From NCBI RefSeq assembly GCF_001904745.1, contig NZ_MRCD01000073.1:1-44659 (forward strand): a stretch of 44,659 nt of DNA. Reading direction: 5' to 3'. The notes beneath the pieces were generated by a model, which was not told the origin of the DNA, made no database searches, and saw only the letters and a list, made by a program, of their open reading frames with translations. This DNA is from Calothrix sp. HK-06. GTDB lineage: Bacteria; Cyanobacteriota; Cyanobacteriia; Cyanobacteriales; Nostocaceae. Shown here piece after piece: positions 3,531 through 17,970 of this stretch; position 1 is the stretch's first letter, and every line of letters begins with the position of its first letter. Both the position numbers and the translations under genes were made by a program.

Positions 3531-3566
3531 ACTTGACTTCTTTGTAAACTTCACGTTAGAATATTC

Positions 3567-3586
3567 TATAACGAGCGTTCGATATA
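3567..3586. promoter_or_regulatory. TetR-type palindromic operator, copy 1
   Basis: TATAACGAGCGTTCGATATA is symmetric at 16 of 20 positions and sits 9 bases before the ATG of the TetR gene. The same site recurs at 6294-6313, 17207-17226 and, less exactly, 36625-36644. Autoregulation by the TetR protein just downstream is the simplest reading. Confidence 0.7.
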
Positions 3587-3595
3587 AAAAATATT

Positions 3596-4177
3596 ATGCC
3601 AAAGATAGTAGACCATGATTTGTATCGCAAAGAGTTGTTGGATAAGAGTTTTGATTTGTTTGCCCAGAAAGGGTATGGGTCGATAACGATGCGTGAAATT
3701 GCTAAGGAGCTAAAGGTTTCGACGGGAACGCTGTATCACTATTTTCCAAATAAGAAGGCACTTTTTGAGCAGTTGGTGGAAGATATGGTGCAAAATGAGC
3801 TTTCTATTGCGACTGCGGAGTGGGAGACGTTAAAGACTCGACAGGAACGCGCGGAAGCTTTGGGTAAGTATTTGAATGGTAATCTTGATTATCATATTAA
3901 AAGCAGTTATTTAATGATTGATTTTTCGCAGCACCAAGATTCTGAAGGGTATATAGAGAGTGAATTTTGGCGCCGTTTATGCGAACGTTATCAAGGCGCT
4001 ATTTATGAGTTTTTGGGTGTGGAAGACCGCGCAATTGCTGATTTTATTATGTGTTTTGTTGATGGGGTGATTTTGGAAAGGTTGCTTGGTGTAAATACAA
4101 TTGATGTTGTTGAACAATGTACGCTGATGGGCAAGATGGTGAATGCTTATTTAGAAAAGTATGGATTTAATTCATAG
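3596..4177 (+). CDS. TetR/AcrR-family transcriptional regulator
   Basis: 193 aa. The N-terminal helix-turn-helix (about 12-55) reads SFDLFAQKGYGSITMREIAK, then the recognition helix region VSTGTLYHYFPNKKALF. The C-terminal all-helical ligand-binding domain is variable, as in the family. It is the first gene of a five-gene plus-strand run (TMEM175-like, DevB, GNAT, DevC). A palindrome overlaps its promoter and recurs before the GNAT gene and before a DevA-type ATPase 13 kb away, which points to a repressor of an export system. The start is the ATG directly after the operator, so operator occupancy would also cover the leader. The inducer is unknown. Confidence 0.9.
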   Translation: MPKIVDHDLYRKELLDKSFDLFAQKGYGSITMREIAKELKVSTGTLYHYFPNKKALFEQLVEDMVQNELSIATAEWETLKTRQERAEALGKYLNGNLDYHIKSSYLMIDFSQHQDSEGYIESEFWRRLCERYQGAIYEFLGVEDRAIADFIMCFVDGVILERLLGVNTIDVVEQCTLMGKMVNAYLEKYGFNS

Positions 4178-4186
4178 GAGTTTATT

Positions 4187-4831
4187 ATGGTTAGTCAAGG
4201 ACTTGAGAAAGAAGATAAGTCTAGTAATATGATTCGTCATTTGGCACGGTTGAGCGATTGTATTTTTGCTTTTGCTATGGCTCTAATGGTTGCTGGGTTT
4301 GATTTTCCGGAAGCGAAGGATATGACGGATGCTCAAATAAATTCTTTTTTGATGGAGCAATTAAAGCCGTTGGGTACTTATGTGATTACTTTCGTTTTGG
4401 TAGCTGTTTATTGGATAGCTCATTCGCAGCAGGTTAGTTATTATAAGCGTACTGATGAAACACACCTCTGGATTGGGGTTGTTTATTTAATGTGTCTTTT
4501 TATTGTTCCTTTGTCTAATGATTTATTGATGAATTTTTCTGATAATTTGATGGTGAAGGTTTGGTTTAGTGTTAATATTTTTTTAATTGGTGTTTTAAAT
4601 TTTGTAAGTTGGACTTATGCAACTTATAATTATCGGCTTGTTGATGTAAGTTTGGATAAGAGTATTATTTTGAGTACGAGGGTTAAGGCTTTGATTGAAC
4701 CTGCTTTTGCTCTTGTTTCGATTGGGGTGGCTTTTTTGAATCAAGGTTGGTGGGATTATGTTTGGTTGATGATTCCTGTTGTTTATTTTTTGGTGGAACG
4801 AACCGCAAAGGTCGCAAAGGAAGAGAGTTAA
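4187..4831 (+). CDS. TMEM175-family (DUF1211) membrane protein, putative cation channel
   Basis: 214 aa with about six membrane segments. The first begins with RHLARLSDCIFAFAMALMV (about 17-35), the prokaryotic TMEM175 signature R-x3-(F/L)SD followed by the pore helix. Others lie at about 60-78, 93-110, 122-145, 165-183 and 186-202. In this family the channels conduct K+ in some bacteria; conduction here is inferred. The ATG is 9 bases after the TetR stop with an AGGAG Shine-Dalgarno, so it is in the same transcript. Why a putative channel sits with an exporter is unclear; it may help restore ion balance or be a regulator-linked stress gene. Confidence 0.75.
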   Translation: MVSQGLEKEDKSSNMIRHLARLSDCIFAFAMALMVAGFDFPEAKDMTDAQINSFLMEQLKPLGTYVITFVLVAVYWIAHSQQVSYYKRTDETHLWIGVVYLMCLFIVPLSNDLLMNFSDNLMVKVWFSVNIFLIGVLNFVSWTYATYNYRLVDVSLDKSIILSTRVKALIEPAFALVSIGVAFLNQGWWDYVWLMIPVVYFLVERTAKVAKEES

Positions 4832-4883
4832 GAGGAATTTTTGGGAATTATAAGTACAGCATCTATATATATAGAGGGGAAGT

Positions 4884-6275
4884 ATGGGTTTTAAAATATC
4901 TCTCAAGTCTTTTAATGGTTGGATGGTTGGAATGATGGTTGCTGCTACTGCTGCTACTGGTGGTGTATTATATTATGGCGCCCAGCAGTTTGGTTTAAGT
5001 GGTAAGCCTGTTGAAAAACCTGTTGAGTTACCTCCTGTTACGAAAGTTAGTGCTTTGGGGCGCCTGGAACCTGAAGCTGAAATAATTAAGTTATCGGCGC
5101 CTATCCCTTTAGATGGTGATAGAGTAGCTAGGGTATTGGTAAAAGAAGGTGAGACTGTTAAACAAAGTCAGGTTATTGCTGTATTAGATTCAAGAGCAAG
5201 ATTACAAGATGCTTTACTTGTTGCTCAAAAACAAGTCAATATGGCAAGGGCAAAGTTAGCACAAGTACAAGCTGGCGCCAAAACTGGACAAATTCAAGCT
5301 CAAAAAGCTACAGTAGCTAGACTGCAAGCTGAATCTGTTGGTGATAAGGTTGGACAACAAGAAATTATTGCTCGGTTAGAAGCTCAATGGCAAGGTGATA
5401 AACAAGCACAGTTAGAAAATATCGCACGGTTAGAAGCACAAGCACAAGGTGATAAACAAGCACAACTTGCCACTATTAGTAGGTTGGAAGCTGAGTTGAA
5501 TAATGCAAATTCGGAATTGGGACGTTATCAGCAACTATATAATGAAGGGGCAATCTCAATTTCGCTGTTCGATGGTAAACGGTTGAGTGTGGAAACTGCG
5601 AAACAGCAACTTAACGAAGCTAAAGCTGTGTTGAAACGGATTGATACTACTTCCCTCAGACAAATTAGTGAAGCTAAAGCTGTTTTGCGACGTATTGATG
5701 CAACTAATAGTAAGCTTTTAAGTGAAGCAAGAGTTGCGCTAAATAAAATTAACGCAACTGGCAATAAACAAATTAGCGAGGCTCAAGCTACATTAAATAG
5801 TATCGCTGAAGTTCGCCCTGTGGATGTTCAAGCTGCACAAACTGAAGTTGATAATGCTATCGCTGCTACTAAACGTGCAGAAACTGAATTAGAACAATCT
5901 TACATTCGGGCACCGCTAAGTGGACAAATTCTCAAAATTCATACCCGTGCTGGAGAAAAGATTGGTGATAACGGAATTGCAGATTTGGCACAAACGAGTC
6001 AAATGGTAGCAATTGCTGAAGTTTATCAAAGCGATATTGCTAAAATTAAACTTGGACAAACGGCTAAGGTAACAGGACAAGCGTTCCAAGGTGAAGTCAA
6101 AGGTACTGTATCACAAATTGACTTACAAGTAAACCGTCAAAACACCTTTGCTAACCAACCAGGAGAAAACCTCGACCGTCGTGTCGTCGAAGTCAAAATT
6201 CGTATAGACCCTGAAGATAACTCCCGTGTCGCTGGGTTGACTAATTTACAAGTTCAAACTTCGATTGATTTGTAA
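4884..6275 (+). CDS. devB: DevB-type membrane-fusion (HlyD-family) subunit of an ABC exporter
   Basis: 463 aa. An N-terminal membrane anchor (about 13-32) is followed by a barrel-sandwich half (LGRLEPEAEI, RVLVKEGETVKQSQVIAVL). Next comes a long coiled coil (about 95-310), then the second lipoyl half (SYIRAPLSGQILKIHTRAGE) and a beta-barrel region ending in LTNLQVQTSIDL. This is the DevB/TIGR02971-type periplasmic adaptor that links DevC-DevA to a TolC-like channel. The coiled coil holds internal repeats: the block ARLEAQ.QGDKQAQL near 165-205 and SEAKAVLRRIDAT-like blocks near 245-305, which suggests growth by tandem duplication. The start has a GAGGGGA ribosome site 4 bases upstream. There are 52 bases to the upstream channel gene. 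The symbol denotes family, not identity with the heterocyst glycolipid exporter. Confidence 0.88.
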   Translation: MGFKISLKSFNGWMVGMMVAATAATGGVLYYGAQQFGLSGKPVEKPVELPPVTKVSALGRLEPEAEIIKLSAPIPLDGDRVARVLVKEGETVKQSQVIAVLDSRARLQDALLVAQKQVNMARAKLAQVQAGAKTGQIQAQKATVARLQAESVGDKVGQQEIIARLEAQWQGDKQAQLENIARLEAQAQGDKQAQLATISRLEAELNNANSELGRYQQLYNEGAISISLFDGKRLSVETAKQQLNEAKAVLKRIDTTSLRQISEAKAVLRRIDATNSKLLSEARVALNKINATGNKQISEAQATLNSIAEVRPVDVQAAQTEVDNAIAATKRAETELEQSYIRAPLSGQILKIHTRAGEKIGDNGIADLAQTSQMVAIAEVYQSDIAKIKLGQTAKVTGQAFQGEVKGTVSQIDLQVNRQNTFANQPGENLDRRVVEVKIRIDPEDNSRVAGLTNLQVQTSIDL

Positions 6276-6293
6276 CGTTTTATTACGGTAAAG

Positions 6294-6313
6294 CATAACG
6301 AATGTTCGTTATA
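6294..6313. promoter_or_regulatory. TetR-type palindromic operator, copy 2
   Basis: CATAACGAATGTTCGTTATA lies between devB and the GNAT gene, in the same register as the site before the TetR gene. It implies an additional promoter inside the cluster that drives the GNAT and DevC genes. Confidence 0.68.
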
Positions 6314-6332
6314 GATTTGGAGGAAGTGAAAT

Positions 6333-6947
6333 ATGCAGGCAACAACAACTAAGCTGGAACCATCACAAGTTGATAAAGCTATCGAAGTTCTAGGCCATGC
6401 TTTTCGTCAAGACCCCATTTTTAATTATTTGCTGCCAGATAATTCTACGAATGCGCTCTTGTGGTTACTTCGTGTTGCTTTGAGATATAGCCATTCTTAT
6501 GACCATACTTATACAACTACTACTAATACTGGTGAACTACAAGGTATTGCATCTTGGATACCACCCTCCGGTTCTGGCAGTAGTGTTACACGTATATTAC
6601 AAGCAGGCGCCTTAATTTTACCGTTCAAACTGGGAATATTAAGATTTGCACACACGCTTTCTTGGTCTTGGGCAATGGAAGAACTACATAAACGCAATAT
6701 GTGGTCAAAACCTCATTGGTATTTATCGCTGTTGGGTGTTTCACTAAATAGTCAAGGATATGGAATAGGTAGTTTATTAATTGAACCGATACTGAGACAA
6801 GCTTATAGTGACGGGTTGCCAATTTATTTGGAAACTTCAACCGAACTCGCTGTGCGGTTTTATCAAAAGCATGGGTTTAAGGTTGTTTGGGGTGGTGAGT
6901 TATTAAAGGGTAGTCCTTATTTGTGGGCAATGGAAAGGGAGGCATAA
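6333..6947 (+). CDS. GNAT-family N-acetyltransferase
   Basis: 204 aa. The C-terminal half shows the acetyl-CoA site: HWYLSLLGVSLNSQGYGIGS (about 129-148, a Q-x-x-G-x-G/A-like loop as QGYGIG). It continues with YLETSTELAVRFYQKHGFKV (about 169-188), typical of GNAT proteins that act on small molecules. The N-terminus (EVLGHAFRQDPIFNYLLPD) also fits this group. The substrate is unknown; its place between DevB and DevC genes suggests it modifies the exported compound or detoxifies the inducer. It has a GGAGG ribosome site and its own operator just upstream. Its stop is three bases from the DevC start, so the two are cotranscribed. Confidence 0.85.
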   Translation: MQATTTKLEPSQVDKAIEVLGHAFRQDPIFNYLLPDNSTNALLWLLRVALRYSHSYDHTYTTTTNTGELQGIASWIPPSGSGSSVTRILQAGALILPFKLGILRFAHTLSWSWAMEELHKRNMWSKPHWYLSLLGVSLNSQGYGIGSLLIEPILRQAYSDGLPIYLETSTELAVRFYQKHGFKVVWGGELLKGSPYLWAMEREA

Positions 6948-6949
6948 TT

Positions 6950-8116
6950 ATGAGATTATTTAGTAAGAAGAAAACACCGTTAGCTTGGCGCCAGTTGATG
7001 AAAGAAAAGACTCGTCTTGCTATTGCGGTAGCGGGAATTGCGTTTGCTGATATATTAATGTTAATTCAGATGGGGTTTGAAGGCGCCTTATATGATGCTT
7101 CGATACAACCGCATCGTAACCTACAAGCTGATTTGGTGTTGATTGACCCGCAAATGCAAACTTTATTTTCGGTCAAAGATTTTGCGCGGGAACGATTATA
7201 TCAAACTTTGGCGTATGATGGTGTTGAGTCGGTAACTCCAGTATATATTTCCACCGGACAATGGCGTAATCCGCAAACTCGTTTGGAAAGGGCTATTTTA
7301 GTATGGGGTGTTGACCCAACTAAACCGACGTTCAAAATGCCAGAAGTTAATAAGCGACTCGAAAGTATTAAACCGCTAAATAGTGTGTTGTTTGATATTG
7401 CGGGTCGTCCTGACTATGGTGTTAATAGTGATGAGTTTAAGAAAAGTAATAAGTTTGAAACTGAGTTAAACGGTAAAGCTGTTAATGTAACTGGTTTGTT
7501 TGTGAATGGCGCCTCGTTTGCAGCAGATGGTAATGTAATTACGAGTGAATCTACATTTATGCAGCTTTTTCCAAGTAGCAAACCTGAGAAAATTGCCGTT
7601 GGTTTGATTAACTTGAAGGATAATGCGAATATTCTCAGGGTGCAAAAACAGCTTGCTGCATCTTTACCCAAAGATGTTTCGGTACTGACTACCGAAGAGT
7701 TTGCCCAAATTGAAAAGAAATATTGGGCAGAAGGTACAGCAATAGGATTTATTTTCGGTTTGGGTGTCGGTGTTGGGTTTATTGTGGGAATTGTAATTGT
7801 ATATCAAATTCTTTATTCTGACGTTTCTGAGCATTTACCTGAGTACGCAACACTCAAAGCAATGGGATATACAGATGGTTTTCTGTTGCGGGTTTTGATA
7901 CAAGAGTCGTTGCTTTTAGCTGTATTAGGTTATATACCTAGTTTTATTGCTGCTATTGGATTATATAGTCTTGCTGCTGGCGCCACAATGTTACCGATTG
8001 CGATGACGGTAGAACGTGCAATTAATGTTTTTGTTTTAACTGTAGCTATGTGTAGTATTTCTGGTGCTATTGCAATGCGAAAGTTGCAATCTGCTGACCC
8101 TGCCGATATTTTCTAA
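6950..8116 (+). CDS. devC: DevC-type ABC exporter permease (FtsX/MacB-like)
   Basis: 388 aa from the ATG at 6950, which has a GGGAGG Shine-Dalgarno; an upstream in-frame start at 6923 overlaps the GNAT gene and is less likely. The typical DevC start is present (PLAWRQLMKEKTRLAIAVAG, about 9-28) with TM1 at about 20-42. A large periplasmic domain follows (about 50-260). Three C-terminal TM helices lie at about 265-290, 315-345 and 355-375 (GLGVGVGFIVGIVIVYQILY, then EYATLKAMGY before the next helix). It forms the inner-membrane channel with DevB and needs a DevA ATPase. No ATPase follows here; the likely partner is at 17239-17970 under a matching operator. It ends 4 bases into the convergent gene. 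Confidence 0.88.
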   Translation: MRLFSKKKTPLAWRQLMKEKTRLAIAVAGIAFADILMLIQMGFEGALYDASIQPHRNLQADLVLIDPQMQTLFSVKDFARERLYQTLAYDGVESVTPVYISTGQWRNPQTRLERAILVWGVDPTKPTFKMPEVNKRLESIKPLNSVLFDIAGRPDYGVNSDEFKKSNKFETELNGKAVNVTGLFVNGASFAADGNVITSESTFMQLFPSSKPEKIAVGLINLKDNANILRVQKQLAASLPKDVSVLTTEEFAQIEKKYWAEGTAIGFIFGLGVGVGFIVGIVIVYQILYSDVSEHLPEYATLKAMGYTDGFLLRVLIQESLLLAVLGYIPSFIAAIGLYSLAAGATMLPIAMTVERAINVFVLTVAMCSISGAIAMRKLQSADPADIF

Positions 8117-8796
8117 GTCTTGCGGATGGATGCTAGTTGCAAGTAAATTTGGTTGCCCATAATTTGGTAATTATAAGTCATTAAGAATGATTGATTATAT
8201 GTTCTGGAGTTGGGGACATATAATGTTGCAAGTAAAGTTAATTGATTGTTCGTTATTTTAAGTAAGTATTGATTTTTATAAAAATCAATTACTACTCTAT
8301 CTTGGTGTTTCAAAAACTTGATATCGCATGAATTAATGAGATAATCAAGTATATCATTTTGAAGTCGATTATATATGTTAACTTGGGCGCCGTTTACACT
8401 AACTAAACAGGCATCACGTGGTGACCATCTACCATTATAAGTGATTAAGACCACTTGTGAATCAGCCCGCCAATTTGCAGTAATATTACCATAACCTTGA
8501 GGACTACCATTACAAGTATAAAGGCTTGCAACTGGCTTATCACCTCGTATATCATACAAATAATTTCTGGTTCTATTAGATTTACTATTTTGACCCCATA
8601 CTACTGTATATCGGGAATTTGGCGATATTAAATATTCTCGATGAAAGTCATATAAATAATATTTTGTGATTGCACGTGAATTTTGACGCATAACCTGAGA
8701 TTGTGTTCTTCTGGCTTCAACTTTTGCATGTAAATTTACAACCAAGACAGCAAAAAATAAGAAACTTAAAGAAACTCTAAGTACTGTTTTAAGCAT
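8113..8796 (-). CDS. Secreted protein of unknown function
   Basis: 227 aa, not recognised as a known family. An N-terminal hydrophobic segment (about 6-24, LRVSLSFLFFAVLVVNLHAK) with an Ala-rich end looks like a cleaved signal peptide, so the protein is probably periplasmic or outside. The mature part is rich in Tyr, Asn and Ser. It has short beta-strand-like blocks such as SPNSRYTVVWG, NYLYDIRGDKPVASLY and WRADSQVVLITYNG, which recall beta-propeller blades (the SPDS-x-x-L-x-x pattern of TolB/WD40-like proteins), though only about three or four blades would fit. Two cysteines near 94 and 128 may form a disulfide. Its 3' end overlaps devC by 4 bases, convergent. Confidence 0.6.
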   Translation of the reverse strand: MLKTVLRVSLSFLFFAVLVVNLHAKVEARRTQSQVMRQNSRAITKYYLYDFHREYLISPNSRYTVVWGQNSKSNRTRNYLYDIRGDKPVASLYTCNGSPQGYGNITANWRADSQVVLITYNGRWSPRDACLVSVNGAQVNIYNRLQNDILDYLINSCDIKFLKHQDRVVIDFYKNQYLLKITNNQLTLLATLYVPNSRTYNQSFLMTYNYQIMGNQIYLQLASIRKT

Positions 8797-9211
8797 ATTT
8801 ACTTTGTCTAATATTTATTGAATTTTTAACTGTATCTTATTTTCATCTTATCCGCTTTACTTAAACAATTAAGTGATACATAAAACAATGAATTTATTCT
8901 TGTAAAAGCAATATTAATCAAATTTTTAGATGCCGATAAAATTATGATTACTCTTTATTAATAAACTAATTCTTGCAGATATGAAGCAGTAGAAATCCAG
9001 TTGATTCTTAACTATATCTTAATTTTTATGTGCAACTTTTAAAGTAGATTATATCATGGTTTGAGTTATGTAATTTTTATATATAGAATTTATGTGTTAA
9101 TACTAGTAGTGTTTGAGTAAATAAATGGCAGTGAATCTAAAAAAATAATTAAGTGTTGGTGAAATATCGTGCTATATTGTCGTATCTTTTGGATGTGTAA
9201 AGGAGAACAAA
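8797..9211. other. AT-rich intergenic region before the oxidase operon
   Basis: These 415 bases separate the divergent secreted-protein gene and the oxidase operon. No ORF, RNA gene or clear repeat was found. The stretch must contain both promoters. A good AAAGGAGAA ribosome site lies at about 9199-9207. I could not pick out a convincing NtcA site by eye. Confidence 0.6.
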
Positions 9212-9715
9212 ATGTTTGACAACTTACTTCCACCTTTAAATGAGCATAATTTACCGTATCCAGACACAATACATCCTATTGTTGTTCACTTCGTAATTGC
9301 AATGGTTTTGTTTGCTGTGGTTTGTGATTTTGTGGGTTTAGCAACTCGGAATTATAAACTGTATGAGGTGAGTTGGTGGAATATGTGTTTTGCCACGGTT
9401 TCGATATTTATTGCGATTATATTTGGTCAAATCGAAGCTGGTCTCTCTTTGGCATATGAAGCGGTAGAACCTGTATTGAATTTACATACTCTGATTGGTT
9501 GGTCGCTGTCGGGAATTATTGCAGCGATTACAGGATGGCGTTATATTATTCGATTACGTGACCCTTTGAGAGTACCTACTTCTTATTTAGCTGTTGGATT
9601 AGTTTTAAGTGTGATTGTTTGCTTCCAAGTTTACCTTGGGGACAAGTTAGTTTGGGTCTATGGACTACACACACAACCAGTTGTAGAAGCTATAAAGCAA
9701 GGGGTTTTGCAATGA
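9212..9715 (+). CDS. DUF2231 membrane protein, first of pair in oxidase operon
   Basis: 167 aa with four membrane helices (about 23-44, 56-75, 88-106 and 125-145). The DUF2231 start is clear: LPYPDTIHPIVVHFVIAMVL has the conserved HP and VH histidines that could bind heme or metal, and a later LHTLIGW has another histidine. In cyanobacteria such pairs precede the subunits of the alternative respiratory terminal oxidase. The second gene overlaps by ATGA, so the two are translationally coupled. The likely role is in electron delivery to, or assembly of, the oxidase; this is inference from context. Confidence 0.85.
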   Translation: MFDNLLPPLNEHNLPYPDTIHPIVVHFVIAMVLFAVVCDFVGLATRNYKLYEVSWWNMCFATVSIFIAIIFGQIEAGLSLAYEAVEPVLNLHTLIGWSLSGIIAAITGWRYIIRLRDPLRVPTSYLAVGLVLSVIVCFQVYLGDKLVWVYGLHTQPVVEAIKQGVLQ

Positions 9716-10317
9716 ATTATGATTTGATTGACCAAATTAAATCACAACTTGGCGCCAATGGGTTGCCTTATGCAATACCAATTCATCCCAATTTGGTACA
9801 TTTAACGTTGGGATTATTTATTGTAGCAGTAACTTTTGATATTGTCGGCGCCTTTTATGTGTTGGAAAAGCCTGTTTTTAAGTTTTTGGCAATTCCAGCG
9901 ACTCGTGCGAGCTTGTTCGATGTTGGTTGGTACAATATGCTAGCTTGTGCAATTATTACGTTTTTTACAGTTGCGGCAGGTTTTTACGAAATTATGTTGG
10001 CACAACCATCAGCTGAAATTAAGAGCGCTTGGGGTTTACAAGCTTTTGAAACTATGCTTTGGCATGGTGTTGGTGGTGTTGTGTTATTAACGTTAATTGT
10101 TGTCATGACGGTTTGGCGAGGGTTTCAGCGCTATGTATGGCGTAAAGACCGAGGACAACAAGTTCAGTGGAGTTATTTAGCTGTGGGACTGGTAATTATG
10201 TTTATGATGTATCTTCATGGTACATTAGGCGCCCATTTAGCAGGTGAGTTTGGTGTTCACAATACCGCTGTTAGGTTATTGCGGATGGGTGAAGATGTTA
10301 ATGCGGTGTTGAAGTAA
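9712..10317 (+). CDS. DUF2231 membrane protein, second of pair in oxidase operon
   Basis: 201 aa from the ATG at 9712, which overlaps the previous stop as ATGA; the frame is open further upstream only inside the preceding gene. It repeats the plan of its neighbour: GLPYAIPIHPNLVHLTLGLF with the paired HP and VH histidines, then helices near 28-50, 75-100, 118-140 and 158-178. Additional histidines occur in MLWHGVGG, YLHGTLGAHLAG and GVHNTAVR. The last stretch (LHGTLGAHLAGEFGVHN) parallels YLGDKLVWVYGLHTQ in the first protein, supporting origin by duplication. coxB begins 3 bases after its stop. Confidence 0.85.
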   Translation: MNYDLIDQIKSQLGANGLPYAIPIHPNLVHLTLGLFIVAVTFDIVGAFYVLEKPVFKFLAIPATRASLFDVGWYNMLACAIITFFTVAAGFYEIMLAQPSAEIKSAWGLQAFETMLWHGVGGVVLLTLIVVMTVWRGFQRYVWRKDRGQQVQWSYLAVGLVIMFMMYLHGTLGAHLAGEFGVHNTAVRLLRMGEDVNAVLK

Positions 10318-10319
10318 TT

Positions 10320-11219
10320 ATGAAAATTCGTACTATTGTAACCTTGATTATTGTTACATTAACTTTGAGTGCTGTGAGTTTGTGGATGGGAAATTTGTCA
10401 CATTCTTGGTTTCCACCCCAAGCAACAGCAGAGTCTTTACTTATTGATGATTTATTTAGCTTTCTGGTGACATTAGGGACTTTTATATTTTTGGGAGTAA
10501 CGGGTACTCTTACTTATTCAATTCTGTTTCAACGTGCAGGTAAATACGACACGAGTGACGGGCCTCCAATTGAGGGGAATGTTAAATTAGAAATTATTTG
10601 GACTGCAATTCCTTTTTTCTTGGTGATTTGGATAGGCGCCTATAGCTATCAAATATACGACCAAATGGGAATACTTGGACCGATGGAACATGTACATCTA
10701 ATGCAGTCCGCAGAAGCTGCTTCGATGGATACACCATCTAAGAAAATTATAGAAGTCGAAGTCATTGCCAAACAGTGGTCTTGGGAGTTTCGCTATAAAG
10801 GCGCCAATGTCAGTAGTACAGAGTTACATTTACCTAGCGCGCAACGAGTTCGGTTGAAGTTGACTTCTGCTGATGTAATACATGGGTTGTATATTCCAGC
10901 TTTTAGATTGAAGCAAGATATTATCCCTCAGCAAGTTATAGATTTTGAATTTACTCCAATACGTGTGGGTAAATATCGTCTTCGTGATTCCCAATTTAGC
11001 GGGACTTATTTTGCGGCAATGCAAACCGATGTAGTTGTGGAAACACCTAAAGATTTTAGTAATTGGTTAGTTCAGGCAGCGAAACTTGAGCCAAAACCTT
11101 CATATAACCAGGCTTTTGCTGAGTATCAACAGAACAGTAAACAAACTATAAAAGGTTGGAATAGTGTGCCACCTGCTACACCTCCAGTCGTAAATTATCC
11201 CAGTCAGAAAGATAGCTAA
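10320..11219 (+). CDS. Heme-copper oxidase subunit II lacking the CuA site (alternative oxidase)
   Basis: 299 aa. Membrane segments lie near 5-25, 45-68 and 90-112, then a periplasmic cupredoxin domain (about 140-245) with KQWSWEFRYKG and PAFRLKQDIIP. In cytochrome c oxidases the CuA ligands are H, then C-x-E-x-C-x3-H-x2-M. Here H188 (VIHGLYIP) and M234 are kept, but the loop reads DSQFSGTYFAAM (223-234): both cysteines, the glutamate and the second histidine are replaced by D, S, Q and F. The subunit therefore cannot hold CuA and the enzyme should take electrons from quinol or another donor, as proposed for the cyanobacterial alternative respiratory terminal oxidase (ARTO). CoxA follows after 2 bases. 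Confidence 0.92.
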   Translation: MKIRTIVTLIIVTLTLSAVSLWMGNLSHSWFPPQATAESLLIDDLFSFLVTLGTFIFLGVTGTLTYSILFQRAGKYDTSDGPPIEGNVKLEIIWTAIPFFLVIWIGAYSYQIYDQMGILGPMEHVHLMQSAEAASMDTPSKKIIEVEVIAKQWSWEFRYKGANVSSTELHLPSAQRVRLKLTSADVIHGLYIPAFRLKQDIIPQQVIDFEFTPIRVGKYRLRDSQFSGTYFAAMQTDVVVETPKDFSNWLVQAAKLEPKPSYNQAFAEYQQNSKQTIKGWNSVPPATPPVVNYPSQKDS

Positions 11220-11221
11220 TT

Positions 11222-12871
11222 ATGACAATTTTAGAAAATATTGAAGGGCAAAAAGAACATCATCCACCTTTAACGACGTGGAAAAGTTACTTTAGCTTTA
11301 GCACTGACCATAAGGTAATTGGTATTCAATATATAGTTACGGCATTTATATTCTTTCTCATTGGTGGAATTTTCGCGATGATTATTCGCGGAGAACTAAT
11401 AACTCCCGAATCTGACTTGGTTGACCGTACTGTTTACAATGCCATGTTCACTATGCATGGTACGGTGATGTTATTTCTGTGGACGTTTCCTGTTTTAGCT
11501 GGTCTGGCTAATTACCTTGTACCACTAATGATAGGCGCCCGTGATATGGCATTTCCAAGATTGAATGCTGTGGCGTTTTGGATGGTGCCTATATTCGGCA
11601 TTATCCTGATGGCAAGTTTTCTGTTACCTTCAGGGCCAGCACAAGCGGGATGGTGGTCTTATCCTCCCGTCAGTTTACAAAACCCTAGTGGAAATTTAAT
11701 TAACGGTCAATTTTTATGGTTGGTGGCAGTGGCATTATCGGGAGTTTCCTCAATAATGGGCGCCGTAAATATTGTCACCACTATCTTTAAAATGCGGGCG
11801 CCGGGAATGACGTTCTTCCGAATGCCTGCATATGTTTGGACGGTTCTTAGTGCCCAAATTATTCAGTTATTTGGACTACCTGCACTTACAGCAGGGGCAG
11901 TAATGTTACTGTGTGACCTCTGTTTTGGCACAGCATTCTTTGACCCTGCCAAAGGTGGCAGTCCAGTATTATATCAACACTTCTTTTGGTTTTATTCACA
12001 TCCCGCAGTCTACGTAATCATACTGCCAATTTTTGGTATTTTCTCGGAAATTTTTCCAGTTTACGCCAGAAAGCCGTTATTTGGATACAGAGTAGTTGCC
12101 GTATCATCCCTTATTATCACAGGGTTGAGTGCAGTAGTCTGGGTTCACCACATGTTTGCTAGTGGAACTCCAAACTGGATGCGGATGCTATTCATGTTTT
12201 CAACAATGTTGATTTCCGTCCCTACTGGTATTAAAGTATTTGCTTGGGTAGCAACGGTTTGGGGTGGAAAACTTCGACTTGACACTCCCATGCTATTTGC
12301 ACTGGGTGGATTAGTAATGTTTGTATTTTCAGGCATTACAGGTATTATGCTTGCCGCAGTACCCGTTGATATTCATGTTAATAACACCTATTTTGTCGTC
12401 GGTCATTTCCACTACGTTATATACGGCGCCACTGTCATGGGAGTGTATGCTGCTATATACCACTGGTTTCCCAAAATGACCGGACGAATGTACTATGAAG
12501 GATTAGGAAAATTACACTTTGTACTAACATTTATTGGCGCCAACTTAAACTTTTTTCCAATGCACCCGTTAGGTTTACAAGGAATGCCACGTCGGGTAGC
12601 TTCGTATGACCCAGAGTATGCATTTTGGAATGTGATAGCTTCTTTAGGAGCATTTTTACTGGGAATGTCCACACTACCATTCATTTTAAATATGGTCAGT
12701 TCGTGTGTGAATGGTAAGTTAGCAGGTGATAACCCTTGGAGAGCAATAGGTTTAGAGTGGTTAATTTCCTCACCTCCACCAGTAGAAAACTTTGAACAAC
12801 TCCCCATAGTTATCTCAGAACCATATGGTTATGGTAAAAACGAACCACTCGTAGAAAACGGCAACGGATAA
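11222..12871 (+). CDS. Heme-copper oxidase subunit I, A2-type
   Basis: 549 aa, full length, 12 predicted helices. Ligands are intact: H79 and H397 for the low-spin heme, H395 for the high-spin heme, and H260, H309 and H310 for CuB, with Y264 placed to cross-link to H260. K337 (GIKVF) of the K-channel is present. The motif around the CuB ligand is FYSHPAVY (257-264): the D-channel glutamate of HPEVY is Ala and the preceding residues are Tyr-Ser, the mark of A2-type oxidases. It should reduce oxygen to water and pump protons, in thylakoid or cytoplasmic membrane. The last codons and the stop lie inside a dispersed TAACGGATG-type repeat. Confidence 0.95.
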   Translation: MTILENIEGQKEHHPPLTTWKSYFSFSTDHKVIGIQYIVTAFIFFLIGGIFAMIIRGELITPESDLVDRTVYNAMFTMHGTVMLFLWTFPVLAGLANYLVPLMIGARDMAFPRLNAVAFWMVPIFGIILMASFLLPSGPAQAGWWSYPPVSLQNPSGNLINGQFLWLVAVALSGVSSIMGAVNIVTTIFKMRAPGMTFFRMPAYVWTVLSAQIIQLFGLPALTAGAVMLLCDLCFGTAFFDPAKGGSPVLYQHFFWFYSHPAVYVIILPIFGIFSEIFPVYARKPLFGYRVVAVSSLIITGLSAVVWVHHMFASGTPNWMRMLFMFSTMLISVPTGIKVFAWVATVWGGKLRLDTPMLFALGGLVMFVFSGITGIMLAAVPVDIHVNNTYFVVGHFHYVIYGATVMGVYAAIYHWFPKMTGRMYYEGLGKLHFVLTFIGANLNFFPMHPLGLQGMPRRVASYDPEYAFWNVIASLGAFLLGMSTLPFILNMVSSCVNGKLAGDNPWRAIGLEWLISSPPPVENFEQLPIVISEPYGYGKNEPLVENGNG

Positions 12872-12928
12872 AACGGATGTAACGGATGCAATACGTAAAT
12901 CATCCGTTACATCTGTTACATCCGTTGC
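12860..12928. repeat. TAACGGATG repeat hairpin between coxA and coxC
   Basis: A GGCAACGG start, then ACGGATGTAACGGATG units (12860-12889), are followed by the reverse arm CATCCGTTACATCTGTTACA ending in CCGTTGC (12902-12928). The arms can pair into a stem of about 25 bases. The coxA stop (12869-12871) is inside it. It could attenuate transcription into coxC or stabilise the upstream mRNA. Confidence 0.75.
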
Positions 12929-12953
12929 AAGATATTTTATTCAAACATCTAAA

Positions 12954-13538
12954 ATGGAAACAACAGCACCAGAACATATACAGCATTCCCACGACGAAGA
13001 AGCTAATAGCATGTTTGGCTTCATCGTGTTTCTACTTTCCGAAAGTGTTATTTTCTTAAGTCTATTCGCAGGATATATAGTCTACAAAACCACAACGACA
13101 AACTGGTTGCCAGCAGGTGTAGAAGGATTAGAAATTAAAGAACCTGGAATAAACACAGTCATTCTTGTAGCCAGCAGCTTTGTAATATATATAGCCGAGC
13201 TTTTCTTAGCACGTAAAAATATTTGGGGTTTTCGCGTGTTTTTGCTGTTCACAATGATGATGGGAAGTTATTTTCTATACGGTCAAGCAGTGGAATGGCA
13301 AGGACTGAATTTTAGTTTTACATCTGGAGTATTTGGTAGAACGTTTTATTTACTCACAGGTTTCCACGGACTGCACGTTTTTACAGGTGTTTTATTACAG
13401 TTCATGGTCTTAATTCGTTCTTTTATTCCTGGTAACTACGACAAGGGTCACTTTGGTGTTGCGGCAACTTCGCTATTTTGGCACTTTGTCGATGTGATTT
13501 GGATTATTTTGTTTAGCTTAATTTATTTGTGGCAATAG
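12954..13538 (+). CDS. Heme-copper oxidase subunit III
   Basis: 194 aa with five membrane helices (about 20-42, 64-86, 94-112, 128-152 and 172-192), the short bacterial form without the first two helices. Typical motifs are FLLSESVIFLSLFAGY (26-41), FYLLTGFHGLHVFTGVLL near 124-141, and WHFVDVIWIILFSLIYLW at the end. The conserved glutamate E31 is present. It separates from coxA by an 82-base gap filled by a repeat hairpin, and has no clear Shine-Dalgarno, so its expression may be lower. The GMC oxidoreductase follows after 9 bases. Confidence 0.93.
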   Translation: METTAPEHIQHSHDEEANSMFGFIVFLLSESVIFLSLFAGYIVYKTTTTNWLPAGVEGLEIKEPGINTVILVASSFVIYIAELFLARKNIWGFRVFLLFTMMMGSYFLYGQAVEWQGLNFSFTSGVFGRTFYLLTGFHGLHVFTGVLLQFMVLIRSFIPGNYDKGHFGVAATSLFWHFVDVIWIILFSLIYLWQ

Positions 13539-13547
13539 GAAAGTTAT

Positions 13548-15035
13548 ATGATTATCGATGACCAATATTATGATGTAATTATAGTTGGTACAGGCGCCGG
13601 TGGTGGAACCATAGCACAAAAGCTGGCGCCAACGGGTAAGAAAATTCTAATTTTGGAAAGAGGTGGTTTTTTAGCTCCAGAAGAACAACTTCAAGGTGGC
13701 GAAGTCTTTAAAAAAGAACGTTATCATGCTAACGAAGAATGGTACGATAAAGATGGTGAGCCGTTTTTTCCCCAAACAAGTTACTCGGTTGGTGGTGATA
13801 CCAAAACTTACAGTGCTGAACTGTTACGGATGCGAGAAAAAGATTTTGAGCAGGTACAGCACCAAGATGGTATTTCTCCAGAATGGCCAATCAAATATAA
13901 AGACTTAGAACCATATTACAACGAAGCTGAAAAGCTATATAATGTCAGAGGTCAAGTTGGAGAAGACCCTACCGAATCACCTCGCACTCAAGAATATTTG
14001 CACCCAGCAGTAAATCACGAACCTCAAGTTCAAGAAATTTGCAATATCGTATCTAAACAAGGATTAAATCCATCGCATCTACCTTTAGAGTCAAATCAAG
14101 ATAGCGATACCAAACCTGGAATTGCAACCGTCAAAAACTATCCTAACGTTACCCTCAAAACCGACGCATTTGTTAGCTTTCTACACACTAGCCCCAGTGG
14201 AAGAGAAGTTAAAGCAGTTGAAGCGCAAATCGGTACACAGTCATATTTATTTTTTGCCCATATTGTTATTCTAGCTTGCGGCGCCGTCAACTCGGCAGCA
14301 CTACTATTGCGTTCACATAACGAAAAACACCCCCACGGACTTGCGAACAGTTCCGACCAAGTGGGACGCAATTTTATGAAACATCTAATGACATCTATAG
14401 TACAACTACGTCCAACAACAAATTCGGGTATATTTCCCAAAACAGTTTGTATCAATGATTTTTACTGGGGAGATAAAGACTTTCCCTTTCCAATGGGCAG
14501 TATTCACAACACAGGTGGTCTTCTTCAAAATGTCATGTTTGCAGAATCTCCACCTTTATTATCTGGTTTAGCCAAACTTATGCCTGGTTTCGGTTTACGA
14601 CAACTAGCCATTCGTTCTATAGGTTGGTGGTTACAAAGCGAAGACCTACCAGACCCAAACAACCGAGTTAGACTAAAAAACTCAAAACTCTATTTAGAAT
14701 ATACCCCTAACAACACCGAAGCACACGACCGTTTGATTTATCGCTGGTTAGATACACTTAAAACAGTAGACCGCATTATGAATAACCCCTTATCGCGTGG
14801 CGCCTATCCCCGTGCAGAGGCGCCACTAAATGTAATTGCACACCAGTCAGGTACATGTCGCTTTGGTGAAGACCCAAAAACATCAGTTCTTAACCTCAAC
14901 TGTTGTACACACGATGTAAATAACTTATATATTGTTGACGCCAGCTTTTTCCCATCCAACCCAGCAACCAGTCCCTCACTTACAGTAATCGCAAACTCTC
15001 TCAGAGTCGGAGAACATTTAATTACAAATTTATAA
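13548..15035 (+). CDS. GMC-family FAD-dependent oxidoreductase
   Basis: 495 aa. The FAD-binding dinucleotide fold is at the N-terminus (DVIIVGTGAGGGTIAQKLAP, about 9-28), followed by LILERGG. The C-terminal GMC signature includes HQSGTCRFGEDP (about 439-450) and LYIVDASFFPSNPATSPSLT (about 464-483), with the catalytic-site His (H439 region) and Asn in SNPA. Relatives oxidise alcohols, sugars or choline, and several membrane-associated members pass electrons to quinone. No Tat signal is visible, so it is probably cytoplasmic. It is the last gene of the oxidase operon, 9 bases after coxC, which suggests it feeds electrons to the quinol-type oxidase. The substrate cannot be told from sequence. 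Confidence 0.88.
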   Translation: MIIDDQYYDVIIVGTGAGGGTIAQKLAPTGKKILILERGGFLAPEEQLQGGEVFKKERYHANEEWYDKDGEPFFPQTSYSVGGDTKTYSAELLRMREKDFEQVQHQDGISPEWPIKYKDLEPYYNEAEKLYNVRGQVGEDPTESPRTQEYLHPAVNHEPQVQEICNIVSKQGLNPSHLPLESNQDSDTKPGIATVKNYPNVTLKTDAFVSFLHTSPSGREVKAVEAQIGTQSYLFFAHIVILACGAVNSAALLLRSHNEKHPHGLANSSDQVGRNFMKHLMTSIVQLRPTTNSGIFPKTVCINDFYWGDKDFPFPMGSIHNTGGLLQNVMFAESPPLLSGLAKLMPGFGLRQLAIRSIGWWLQSEDLPDPNNRVRLKNSKLYLEYTPNNTEAHDRLIYRWLDTLKTVDRIMNNPLSRGAYPRAEAPLNVIAHQSGTCRFGEDPKTSVLNLNCCTHDVNNLYIVDASFFPSNPATSPSLTVIANSLRVGEHLITNL

Positions 15036-15039
15036 TTTT

Positions 15040-15074
15040 GTAAGTTGGGTTACGCTACGCTATACCCAACCTAC
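15040..15074. terminator. Hairpin between convergent genes, probable bidirectional terminator
   Basis: GTAAGTTGGGT (15040-15050) pairs with ACCCAACCTAC (15064-15074). It sits 5 bases after the GMC oxidoreductase and 11 bases after the convergent exporter gene. The GTAGGTTGGGT arm is the same dispersed repeat seen at 2837 and 3478. Confidence 0.6.
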
Positions 15075-15084
15075 GAATAATCTA

Positions 15085-16656
15085 TTAATGTGCCGATGCT
15101 ATAACGCCAGGTTTTTTCTTACCTAACAATAAAAGTAAGGGTAAGCTAACTAAAAAAGCAATCCCCACTAGCCAAAAAATATCTTCAAACGATAAAATAG
15201 CAGCTTGAGCGTTGATTGTTTGGTCAATAATTGCTAAAGCTTGGCTTTGCGCTTGCACAGCATCTATACCGCGACTTTGTAACCCTGCTGCAAGTTCAGA
15301 TAAACGTTGATTAGTAGCAGGGTCATAACTACTTATTTTCTCAACTAATATTGCCCGATGAAAAGCTTCTCTTTGAGCAAGTACTGTTGTTAATACAGCA
15401 ATCCCAATACTACCTCCCAATTGCCGCGTCAAATTATAAAATCCTGAACCTGCTGGAATATCTTGTTTTGGTAATGGACCAAGCGTCGCTAAACTCAAAG
15501 GTAAAAACATCATCACCGTTCCGACACCACGCCACAGCAAAGGATAAAATAATGTTTCACTGTTACTATCAGGATTTATATGTTCTAAATTGAACATTAC
15601 CAAGCTAGTAATAATACCTCCAGCAGCAATAATTATGCGAGGGTCTATCTTACTTGTTAATTTCCCTAGCATTATCATCGTTACCGCAGAAGCTAAGGCG
15701 CCTGGAAATAATAGCATTCCTGTTTGCGTAGCTGTATAATGTAAAATACTTTGAGCAAAAATTGGCACTGCAAATAAGGCACCATATAATCCCATTCCTA
15801 AAACAGCAGAGTAGATGGAACCTGCTGCCAAAGAACGGTGTCGCAGAACTCGTAAATCAACAGCAGGGTTTTTAGCAGTTAATTCTCGCCAAATAAACAG
15901 CGCGAAACCAATAACACTAACTATTGCTAAAGTTACAATAAACCCAGAAGCAAACCAATCTTCCTTTTCACCTTCTTCTAAAAAAGTTTGTATCCCTCCC
16001 ACCGCAACCGCTAACAAAATAATTCCCAACCAATCAACACTACGATTAATTGGTTTTTCTTTAGGATGGTCTTTTGGTAGAAATAACAATGCCATTACTA
16101 CCGCTAAAATACCAAAAGGTAAATTAATAAAGAAAATCCATCGCCATCCCAAACTATCAGTCAAAAACCCCCCTAAAGTTGGGCCAATAGCAGGGCCAGA
16201 AATAACACCCACTCCAAATACAGCTTGTGCTAGTCCTTGTTGTTCAGGAGGAAAAGTTTCAAATAAAATTGCCTGCGCTTTGGCAAGTAGTCCCCCTCCA
16301 CACAGTCCTTGTAATATCCGCGCCAAAACTAATATCTGCAAATTACCCGCAAACCCACACAGCATCGATGCAACAGTAAAACCAATCAAAGAAAATATAA
16401 AATAAGCTTTTCGTCCAAAATAATCTCCCAACCACGCAGTCAAAGGAATAACTATGACGTTCGCAATCGCATATCCCGTCACCACCCAGCCAATTTCTGT
16501 AATTGTTGCACCCAAACTACTTTGCATGTCAGTAAGTGCAACGTTAACTATACTCGTATCAATTACCTCTAAAATGGCGCCCAAAGATGCAGTAATAGCA
16601 ATTGCCCATTTCAACCATTCTGGATTACTAACAGTTCCCTTTGTATCGTGTATCAT
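15085..16656 (-). CDS. MFS multidrug exporter, DHA2 (EmrB/QacA) family, 14 TM
   Basis: 523 aa with 14 predicted membrane helices. Markers are EVIDTSIVNVAL in TM1 (about 25-36, DHA2 motif D1), GWVVTGYAIANVIVIPLTAW, motif A GDYFGRKAYF near 77-86, LQGLCGGG (about 115-122) and motif C GVISGPAIGPTLGGFLTDSL. The C-terminal half has FYNLTRQLGGSIGIAVLTT, typical of EmrB. It exports toxic compounds by proton antiport in the cytoplasmic membrane; no EmrA adaptor gene is adjacent. It is divergent from a MarR regulator with only 51 bases between the starts and an inverted repeat there, so MarR control is likely. Confidence 0.93.
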   Translation of the reverse strand: MIHDTKGTVSNPEWLKWAIAITASLGAILEVIDTSIVNVALTDMQSSLGATITEIGWVVTGYAIANVIVIPLTAWLGDYFGRKAYFIFSLIGFTVASMLCGFAGNLQILVLARILQGLCGGGLLAKAQAILFETFPPEQQGLAQAVFGVGVISGPAIGPTLGGFLTDSLGWRWIFFINLPFGILAVVMALLFLPKDHPKEKPINRSVDWLGIILLAVAVGGIQTFLEEGEKEDWFASGFIVTLAIVSVIGFALFIWRELTAKNPAVDLRVLRHRSLAAGSIYSAVLGMGLYGALFAVPIFAQSILHYTATQTGMLLFPGALASAVTMIMLGKLTSKIDPRIIIAAGGIITSLVMFNLEHINPDSNSETLFYPLLWRGVGTVMMFLPLSLATLGPLPKQDIPAGSGFYNLTRQLGGSIGIAVLTTVLAQREAFHRAILVEKISSYDPATNQRLSELAAGLQSRGIDAVQAQSQALAIIDQTINAQAAILSFEDIFWLVGIAFLVSLPLLLLLGKKKPGVIASAH

Positions 16657-16662
16657 AAATTA

Positions 16663-16677
16663 GTTAGCATAGCTAAC
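16663..16677. promoter_or_regulatory. Probable MarR operator in the divergent promoter
   Basis: GTTAGCATAGCTAAC, arms GTTAGC/GCTAAC with a 3-base centre, followed by further TTAG/CTAA half-sites up to about 16684. It lies between the divergent exporter and MarR starts, the usual place for a MarR site. Confidence 0.6.
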
Positions 16678-16707
16678 AGTTAGTATAGCACCCATAATTA
16701 AACCAAG

Positions 16708-17169
16708 ATGAATAAACAAACCAAAATATCCTCACAATGTGCTGCGACAGTCATCGAATCAATACCAGTAATTACACAATTCTTTCGCGTCGAAATGCGG
16801 CGCCATACAGAATCTCTACCCGAATCACTTTCTGTACCTCAATTTCGCACGCTTGGTTTTCTCTACCGCTACCCAGGCGCCTCACTTTCCCAACTTGCTG
16901 AATATCTAGAAGTAACAAAAGCTACAGCTTCAAATTTAACAGACCGTCTCGTTCAAAAAGAACTAATTACCAGAACCGAAAATCCGAAAAGCAGGCGCCA
17001 GATTAATCTGAAATTAACGCAAGCAGGTGAGTATCATTTAGAACAAATAAAAACACTAATTAGTACAAAAATTTCAACTATTCTCGATGACCTACCGCAA
17101 GAACAACTTCAATGTGTCATTGATGGGTTAACGGTACTCAGTAATGCTTTTGCACGGGTAATTGATTAA
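16708..17169 (+). CDS. MarR-family transcriptional regulator
   Basis: 153 aa. The winged helix-turn-helix lies at about 45-110: SVPQFRTLGFLYRYPGASLS, then QLAEYLEVTKATASNLTDRL (recognition helix), LVQKELITR and the wing NPKSRRQINLKLTQAG. The helices at both ends form the dimer interface. It likely represses the divergent EmrB-type exporter and itself through the GTTAGC inverted repeat; MarR proteins release DNA on binding small aromatics or on oxidation. A DevA-type ATPase follows 69 bases later but has its own TetR-type operator, so it is probably not in this unit. Confidence 0.9.
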   Translation: MNKQTKISSQCAATVIESIPVITQFFRVEMRRHTESLPESLSVPQFRTLGFLYRYPGASLSQLAEYLEVTKATASNLTDRLVQKELITRTENPKSRRQINLKLTQAGEYHLEQIKTLISTKISTILDDLPQEQLQCVIDGLTVLSNAFARVID

Positions 17170-17206
17170 TTATTGACACCACTTTACTCAATAAGTTAAA
17201 TTAATT

Positions 17207-17226
17207 TATAACAAACGTTCGATATA
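17207..17226. promoter_or_regulatory. TetR-type palindromic operator, copy 3
   Basis: TATAACAAACGTTCGATATA, identical at 18 of 20 bases to the site before the TetR gene at 3.6 kb and in the same register. It ends 12 bases before the DevA start. Confidence 0.72.
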
Positions 17227-17238
17227 ATAAGTGAGATT

Positions 17239-17970
17239 ATGCAATTAGAATCACATCTGCTTGGTGAAGAGAGTGTAATATCGATACAAGATTTAAACCA
17301 TTATTTTGGGGAAGGCGCCTTACGTAAGCAAGCATTATTTGATATAAATTTGGAAATAAACAAAGGTGAAATAATCATCATGACGGGGCCTAGTGGTTCT
17401 GGAAAGACGACGCTTTTAACGTTGATGGGTGGTTTGCGTTCAGCGCAGTCGGGGAGTTTGAGGATATTGCAACAAGAGATATGCGGCGCCAGTAAGAAGC
17501 AGTTAACTTCGTTACGTCGTAATATTGGGTATATATTCCAAGCACATAATCTCATGACATTTTTAACGGCAAAAGAAAACGTGAGAATGTCATTAGAGTT
17601 GCACGATAAGTACTTAGACCAAGATATAGATGCCTTAGCTGTGAATATGTTAGAGACAGTGGGTTTAGGTAATCGTGTTGATTATTATCCCGAAAGTTTA
17701 TCGGGAGGACAAAAGCAGCGTGTAGCAATCGCGCGGGCATTGGCGAGTCATCCTAAAATAGTATTAGCAGATGAACCAACAGCCGCATTAGACAAAAAAT
17801 CAGGACGTGATGTCGTAGAACTAATGCAAAAACTGGCAAAAGAGCAAGGCTGTACAATATTATTAGTCACCCACGACAACCGTATTTTAGACATTGCTGA
17901 CAGAATTGTATATATGGAAGACGGCAAGCTGGTTAGCAATGGTATTGATGCAGCAGCTAAAGTTAAATAA
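17239..17970 (+). CDS. devA: DevA-type ABC exporter ATPase
   Basis: 243 aa. Walker A GPSGSGKTT (50-58), Q-loop Q101, signature LSGGQ (154-158), Walker B IVLADEP (174-180) with the catalytic glutamate after D178, and H-loop VTHD near 210. The N-terminal ISIQDLNHYFGEGALRKQAL is characteristic of DevA (MacB/LolD-like), where the ATPase drives the DevC permease and DevB adaptor. Here it stands alone, 9.1 kb downstream of the DevC gene, but carries the same operator as the TetR-DevB-DevC cluster. Pairing with that cluster is inferred. The symbol denotes family only. tRNA-Val lies 55 bases downstream. Confidence 0.88.
   Translation: MQLESHLLGEESVISIQDLNHYFGEGALRKQALFDINLEINKGEIIIMTGPSGSGKTTLLTLMGGLRSAQSGSLRILQQEICGASKKQLTSLRRNIGYIFQAHNLMTFLTAKENVRMSLELHDKYLDQDIDALAVNMLETVGLGNRVDYYPESLSGGQKQRVAIARALASHPKIVLADEPTAALDKKSGRDVVELMQKLAKEQGCTILLVTHDNRILDIADRIVYMEDGKLVSNGIDAAAKVK

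Follow-up and report, generated by a model that had tools for sequence, protein, structure and literature searches.

How can the parts of one exporter act together when the gene for its ATPase stands far from the genes of its partners? This question is raised by a locus of Calothrix sp. HK-06 that we analyzed in a stretch of 44,659 nucleotides (contig NZ_MRCD01000073.1, positions 1 to 44,659; the whole stretch is called the window). Here a TetR-family repressor gene is followed by the genes for the membrane fusion protein DevB and the permease DevC, while the gene for the ATPase DevA starts 9.1 kb past the end of DevC, which departs from the usual arrangement of B, C and A in one operon. Our analysis makes it very probable that these genes form one TetR-controlled exporter of the DevBCA (MacAB) type, whose ancestral operon was broken by at least three insertions and whose DevA is now a unit of its own with a copy of the operator. 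The separated parts can probably still be switched together, since DevA carries its own copy of the repressor site. DevBCA exporters themselves are known; what is new is one that was split in steps and whose ATPase came under its own operator copy.

The three exporter proteins were assigned by NCBIfam profile searches: DevB (4884–6275) belongs to TIGR02971 (328.8 bits, cut-off 129), DevC (6950–8116, with its start at about 6950) to TIGR01185 (467 bits, cut-off 290.35) and DevA (17239–17970) to TIGR02982 (376.4 bits, cut-off 295.8), and the DevA sequence carries the GPSGSGKTT and LSGGQ motifs. The repressor (3596–4177) matches TetR_N (PF00440, E-value 3.3e-18), and its AlphaFold2 model, with a mean predicted local distance difference test score of 90.3, gives TetR-fold matches. 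Two accessory genes lie among them, one for a TMEM175-like membrane protein (4187–4831; PF06736, E-value 3.6e-21, 75.9 bits over a gathering cut-off of 25; phmmer against human TMEM175 structures, 1.2e-8) and one for a GNAT acetyltransferase (6333–6947; PF00583). All these genes are on the forward strand. Together with Pfam matches to MFS and MarR further downstream, these results agree with the gene identities proposed in a first-pass annotation of this DNA.

That annotation had also noticed nearly the same palindrome before the TetR gene, the GNAT-DevC pair and DevA, and the three sites were verified, each self-complementary at 16 of its 20 positions and all given on the forward strand. Operator 1 (3567–3586, TATAACGAGCGTTCGATATA) precedes TetR, operator 2 (6294–6313, CATAACGAATGTTCGTTATA) lies between DevB and GNAT-DevC and differs from operator 1 at four positions, and operator 3 (17207–17226, TATAACAAACGTTCGATATA) precedes DevA with two differences from operator 1. 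Operator 2 heads only GNAT-DevC; DevB belongs to the unit that starts with operator 1, where it comes after TetR and TMEM175.

Separation of DevA from DevC

To follow the history of the locus we compared it with its relatives. Of 291 genomes of the order, 86 have a TetR homologue (E-value at most 1e-30), with 87 TetR matches. The 120 loci fetched (L077–L196) comprise 40 around TetR genes, which are 40 of these 87 matches and mostly the higher-scoring ones, and 80 named loci fetched by DevC out of 119 found. After dropping those without a DevC of more than 45% identity or with an identical 300-base piece of DevC, 107 distinct loci were kept, the window itself being left out. In L085, L099, L100 and L108 TetR is present with no DevB or DevC nearby, and L105 has pieces of DevB and a DevA, with no DevC. 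In the 99 loci with a downstream DevA, the gap between DevC and DevA is below 300 bp in 86, between 300 and 700 bp in one and above 700 bp in 12. The compact order TetR-DevB-(accessory)-DevC-DevA is therefore the common state.

The separation of DevA is by insertion, in at least three successive steps between DevC and DevA that are recorded in intermediate loci with the same flanks. In Calothrix NIES-4105 (L167) and Calothrix C42_A2020_038 (L187) DevC is followed by one reverse-strand gene and then by DevA, with a gap of about 1 kb (0.95 kb in L167). In the window this gene (8113–8796, reverse strand) encodes a protein of no recognised family, with zero Pfam or NCBIfam matches, and it stands in the same place in L167, L187 and L117–L120 (a partial match in L117). 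Calothrix FI2-JRJ7, PCC 7103 and PCC 7716 and Dulcicalothrix PCC 7102 (L117–L120) have in addition an oxidase block with DUF2231, Cox and GMC-like genes, and their DevC and DevA are 6.7–7.1 kb apart. This second insertion, found in L117–L120 and not in L167 or L187, occupies 9212–15035 on the forward strand of the window: a DUF2231 protein (9212–9715, by Pfam), a second DUF2231, cytochrome oxidase subunits and a GMC-like oxidoreductase, all labels but that of the first DUF2231 protein being our own reading of the sequences. The third insertion (15050–17172) consists of an MFS exporter (15085–16656, reverse strand) and a MarR regulator (16708–17169, forward strand), and its boundaries were set against L117, L118 and L120, which have 14 bases in its place. 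With the window included, the reverse-strand gene is present in seven genomes and the oxidase block in five, while the MFS-MarR pair is seen only in the window among the fetched loci.

Window positions 8890–17170 correspond to 61 bases in L167. The left flank common to L167 and the window holds a methyltransferase, a response regulator and a 95-residue protein, and the right flank a tRNA, a histidine kinase, a 112-residue protein and GyrB. Since the flanks are the same, the genes were inserted between DevC and DevA, and DevA did not move. The tRNA (18026–18099, forward strand, by Rfam) has its counterpart in a tRNA-Val after DevA in L117–L120 and L167, which was not found in L187, L121, L123 or L125.

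Possible sources can be named for two of the insertions. The MFS-MarR pair occurs elsewhere in NIES-4105 (MFS 90–91%, MarR 79% identity); each of the seven further relatives searched had either a best MFS of no more than 37% identity or none at an E-value of at most 1e-100. A CoxB homologue (80%) on another contig of the L187 genome may point to the source of the oxidase block. Because of this homologue, and because no site of at least 14/20 was found before the block in L117–L120, we treat the block as a passenger and reject it as a part of the exporter. A similar block lies about 4.4 kb downstream of DevA in Nostoc FACHB-110 (L141), which may be chance.

Is the distant DevA the original partner of DevC? 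The gene found beside DevC in the relatives encodes an orthologue of the window DevA and not a different DevA: full-length proteins in this position are 74–98% identical to it, and 90–98% within the split clade, while the seven DevA-family paralogues of the host genome reach 61–75%. In the DevA tree the six-row set from TetR loci (L167, L117–L120 and the window) has a support of 100/93, and the paralogues of the same genome fall outside it. The steps on either side of this set have bootstrap values of 97–99, with values of only 76–78 in the Shimodaira–Hasegawa-like approximate likelihood ratio test, and the order of the tree agrees with the nested states of the insertions. From identity and tree together we reject another DevA paralogue as the native partner.

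The operator and the predicted control of DevA

Another question is whether the palindrome is specific to this regulator. When the window was searched with operator 1 at up to three mismatches, two of the three sites were recovered (the site at 6294 differs at four); the same search in shuffled windows gave a mean of 0.02, and two matches in none of 100 shuffles. A strict pattern, the degenerate 19-mer WTAACRARYGTTCGWTATA built from the three window sites themselves, has four exact matches in the host genome (9,990,453 bases, 243 contigs), namely the three window sites and one at 29062 of contig 35. Its 23 matches among 243 genomes of the order fall in 19 genomes, against none for the reversed control. 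Each of these 19 genomes has this TetR, and 19 matches are found at most 150 bp upstream of the TetR gene; the other four are window 6295 and 17208, the contig 35 site, which precedes an MFS gene, and a site in genome G235 (L095) that precedes a TMEM175 gene by about 100 bp. The pattern is thus not scattered beside unrelated genes, a distribution that would have refuted the first-pass reading, and the motif is specific enough for finding further members of the regulon.

In the relatives, sites of at least 16/20 were searched before TetR (99 loci), after DevB (104) and before DevA (99). Before TetR they occur in 96 of the 99 loci, the three other stretches scoring 14, 14 and none, and random stretches of 330 bases reached 16/20 in 3 of 2100 cases. 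A conserved palindrome before the regulator's own gene is what is expected of a TetR-operator regulon, and binding of TetR to the palindromes is predicted. On the window shuffles, the four-match genome search and the counts in 243 genomes we reject a chance or scattered motif.

The situation before DevA is different in compact and in open loci. A DevA operator is present in none of the 87 loci with a DevC-DevA gap below 700 bp and in 7 of the 12 with a gap above it (L117–L120, L167, L187 and L102). In all seven a gene on the opposite strand lies between DevC and DevA, whereas in the other five (L112, L113, L114, L126 and L186) the intervening gene is co-directional, so read-through from DevC could persist there. 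The first-pass annotation had suggested an exporter split by insertion with its control kept by a shared operator; the insertion stands, as a stepwise process, and the keeping of control is the less likely reading. As compact loci have no operator before DevA, this operator was more likely gained, with control regained, than kept from the ancestor. The clade thus records an operon broken in steps, in which the last gene has an operator only where the genes were separated.

The DevA of the window also appears to have its own promoter. Sigma-70-like hexamers were found before TetR (TTGACT-18-TAGAAT, 3533–3562) and before DevA (TTGACA-18-TAAATT, 17173–17202), both on the forward strand and both at 10/12 in a consensus scan that is weak alone, with 58 found in total against 46 in shuffles. 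The third insertion ends at 17172, one base ahead of the TTGACA hexamer, and homology to the relatives restarts at 17173 or 17171. Both window promoters have TTGAC at –34 relative to the operator; in the relatives 47 of 96 TetR promoters carry a TTGA 31–34 bases upstream of the operator, and in the seven DevA promoters TTGAC is at –34 in five and at –29 in L187, with no clear one in L102. This spacing places the operator just behind the –10 box, a position fit for repression. The 20 bases of operator 3 are identical before DevA in L117–L120 and L167, and L187 has a variant whose 20 bases equal the TetR site of the window. There is no obvious sign that the DevA promoter was copied from that of TetR.

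Based on these data, an ancestral operon TetR-DevB-(accessory)-DevC-DevA was most probably interrupted by successive insertions between DevC and DevA, so that DevA is now transcribed on its own, from a sigma-70-like promoter whose –10 box is directly followed by a TetR operator. Without inducer, a TetR dimer would sit on the operators over the starts of TetR-TMEM175-DevB, GNAT-DevC and DevA. An amphipathic ligand that binds TetR would release it, DevB, DevC and DevA would be made together, and they could then assemble in trans with an outer-membrane channel of the TolC/HgdD type and expel the compound. The clade makes the idea of a re-acquired control directly testable in Calothrix PCC 7103 and PCC 7716 and in Dulcicalothrix PCC 7102.

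Several points weigh against this explanation. The seven loci with a DevA operator are two lineages, the Calothrix clade and L102 (Fisher P 0.005 when collapsed to lineages); the rule that joins an opposite-strand gene to the operator was noticed afterwards, and compact loci offered the search a shorter stretch ahead of DevA, a bias towards fewer sites there. In Nostoc CMAA1605 a displaced DevA, about 12 kb from TetR, has no operator; 20 kb of sequence contain a single site of at least 15/20, that of TetR. The post-DevB site, of the type seen at 6294, occurs in only 31 of 104 loci (5 of 33, 4 of 11 and 22 of 60 with a rising DevB-DevC gap, which gives no clear rule). The strict pattern is missing from most genomes with the TetR because the sites vary, and at three mismatches 15 genomes give 34+34 matches against 15+15 in the reversed control, so weak sites carry little meaning. 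As for the partner, a DevA that accompanies another DevB-DevC in PCC 7716 (82%, L230) is placed by the tree among the deeper rows from TetR loci, L181 has no DevA within reach (the best DevA of its genome is 68% identical and stands beside another DevC), and any of the seven other DevA-family ATPases of the host could serve this DevC.

Cargo, partner ATPase and alternative explanations

The most likely role, judged from related systems, is TetR-repressed export of amphipathic compounds by a DevBCA/MacAB-type pump. In repressors of the QacR type the regulator stands beside the pump with its operator at the promoter. The window TetR is likewise beside a pump, and Foldseek matches its model to QacR with a template modelling score of about 0.6–0.7, at an identity of about 20%. 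The model matches many TetR proteins at E-values of 4e-5 and weaker, FadR and QacR among them, and therefore both an acyl and a drug-like ligand are possible; searches against solved structures gave general TetR relatives and one weak match for DevC.

One of the closest known systems is DevBCA-HgdD of Anabaena (alr3710–3712) with its paralogues, which is built from the same three families and likewise has its permease and its ATPase as separate proteins. Excerpts of the published descriptions present it as a MacB-like pump that recruits the TolC homologue HgdD and is encoded in a single operon (PMC8277102), and state that DevCA resembles MacB when joined (PMC6161253). MacAB-TolC is likewise a MacB-like ATP-binding cassette exporter with a periplasmic adaptor, but MacB combines ATPase and permease in one protein, whereas the window has them as separate genes in separate transcription units. 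The window locus differs from DevBCA-HgdD in its TetR and operator at the head, the accessory genes inside, and an ATPase 9 kb off with its own operator. A further system, alr3646–49 of Anabaena PCC 7120, whose Alr3647/8/9 are tied to drug resistance and ethidium efflux, is probably the counterpart of the window locus (a putative orthologue), since in the cited passages it is handled as one promoter unit called devBCA (PMC12584617) and a transcriptional regulator is the entry given for alr3646 (PMC3141674). In the open literature searched, no title or beginning of an abstract describes a TetR operator for DevBCA-type loci.

One alternative concerns the cargo, which may be an endogenous lipid or glycolipid and not drugs, with the accessory genes modifying or delivering the lipid. 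We regard this as possible, though somewhat doubtful. According to the same partial sources (PMC6161253, PMC8277102) DevBCA-HgdD exports heterocyst glycolipids, and the TetR model is about equally like the FadR acyl-CoA regulators and QacR. The gene of a sulfolipid-1-addressing protein (SfLAP, PF11139) follows DevC in L112, L181, L226, L227 and L230. The glycosyltransferases and the P450 behind the contig 35 sites, described below, also fit such a cargo.

It was also asked whether DevA is an independent ATPase shared by several permeases that lack one (this DevC, a DevC on contig 217 and a DevB-DevC on contig 1), its operator serving this wider use. We hold this unlikely. It is favoured by the two further host DevC genes without an adjacent DevA (C217:37596–38735 and C1:255184–256350, the latter following a DevB), and by DevC-SfLAP pairs without their own DevA behind the same operator, two in Dulcicalothrix PCC 7102 and one in Calothrix PCC 7716, where a full DevB-DevC-DevA locus is 3 kb away (L226:8202–10188, L227:7999–9862 and L230:7285–9151; one pair lies beside a TetR 47% identical to that of the window). 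The Anabaena HgdB-HgdC pair (all5347/all5346), homologous to DevB and DevC, is a precedent, as its cluster contains no ATPase gene according to the excerpt of PMC6161253 that describes it. However, DevA is still less than 10 kb from its old partners and 90–98% identical in the split clade, and the stretches fetched around the contig 217 and contig 1 DevC genes contain no site of at least 16/20. That the contig 1 pair is the counterpart of HgdBC is a guess.

In contrast to HgdBC, for which the same excerpt leaves open which ATPase serves a DevBC pair without one, the single split exporter favoured here has a candidate for the missing ATPase, which can be named from the shared operator, the gene order and the phylogeny. 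A relocation of DevA away from DevC is very improbable: DevA did move in Nostoc CMAA1605, to the other side of TetR, but the window clade has the flanks of NIES-4105, where DevA is next to DevC except for one gene, and for this clade we reject relocation. Weakest of all, with hardly any probability left, is a reading of the sites as a repeat element or a motif of promoter regions unconnected to this TetR, which would explain their fixed places beside promoter-like hexamers but not the presence of this TetR in every genome with a strict match, nor the position of most matches just before its gene.

Accessory genes and further candidate regulon members

The GNAT and TMEM175 genes had been taken for new accessory parts, but both recur in the relatives. 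Among the 107 distinct loci a DUF2834-like cluster is found in 44, GNAT in 16 and TMEM175 in nine, one of the nine (L177) being outside the locus on the other strand. Where GNAT is present it stands in the DevB-DevC interval. TMEM175 is found in the TetR-DevB interval, in the DevC-DevA interval or upstream behind its own site, and it is missing from this locus in PCC 7716 and PCC 7102. Its recurrence by chance is unlikely, because the host genome has only two full copies and because it takes several positions in the relatives. The DUF2834 gene (L135:215–562 and 43 further loci) encodes a small membrane protein nearly always between DevB and DevC; the 44 loci form one similarity cluster of which one representative was checked by Pfam, and no paper that joins DUF2834 with cyanobacteria was found in the open literature searched.

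On contig 35 of the host, a second site (30411, two mismatches to a 20-mer) surfaces when mismatches are allowed; of the two sites one lies about 40 bases upstream of an MFS gene and the other about 50 bases upstream of a Coq4 gene. Coq4 is followed by AraC, two glycosyltransferases (one by Pfam, one by our reading) and a P450 (Pfam), and the two sites would add the MFS exporter and this row to the same response. The MFS and Coq4 genes, again with two sites of this kind, are also present in PCC 7103 and PCC 7716; the copy in PCC 7103 (L228:7612–9634) shows Coq4 as two frames and has a shortened MFS frame (313 against 414 residues). Other candidates were dropped: sites on contigs 134 and 185 (17/20), which are inside reading frames and come from loose searches that match the reversed control equally often, and the three-mismatch site of G301 (L232). 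With an 18-mer and three mismatches the host genome gave 14+13 matches against 21+18 in the reversed control (27 against 39), and such searches are uninformative because the control matches at least as often.

An MFS of the contig 35 type is found inside the operon before DevC in Calothrix NIES-3974 (59%; a single genome, fetched as L124 and L077) and in L104 (47%), and in Nostoc CMAA1605 (51%) it shares one open frame with DevA. This 644-codon DevA-MFS frame (L290:1352–3286, reverse strand) is the displaced DevA mentioned above, some 12 kb away from TetR and on the strand opposite to it. A fusion of an MFS with an ATPase would be unusual, and an assembly error is possible; the genes near the frame are, by our reading, an acyl-AMP ligase, a desaturase and a ketoacyl synthase. 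In L231 there is a P450 behind a site, and in L108 the gene after a TetR of the same family is P450-like.

We may tentatively suggest, with more doubt than confidence, that the operator acts as an address label for a scattered exporter, in that parts losing co-transcription come to stand behind a TetR operator copy of their own. The cases are DevA, the MFS, the TMEM175 of G235 (L095), the DevC-SfLAP pairs and the P450s (L231 and the end of the contig 35 row); the operator-less DevA of Nostoc CMAA1605 is an exception. If this is true, a ligand would trigger oxidation by P450, conjugation by glycosyltransferase and acetyltransferase and export by MFS and DevBCA as a single response of the regulon, which would be a bacterial equivalent of the handling of xenobiotics in phases I, II and III.

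Two repeats of the window may be added. A tandem 9-mer, ATCCGTTAC, is present in 3.8 copies at 3494–3527, directly upstream of the TetR promoter, and a similar array lies at 12901–12926. The usual cyanobacterial HIP1, GCGATCGC, has zero occurrences in the window, and GGCGCC, for which base composition predicts 2 occurrences and a fourth-order model 52, is present 83 times; it is perhaps a HIP1-like variant.

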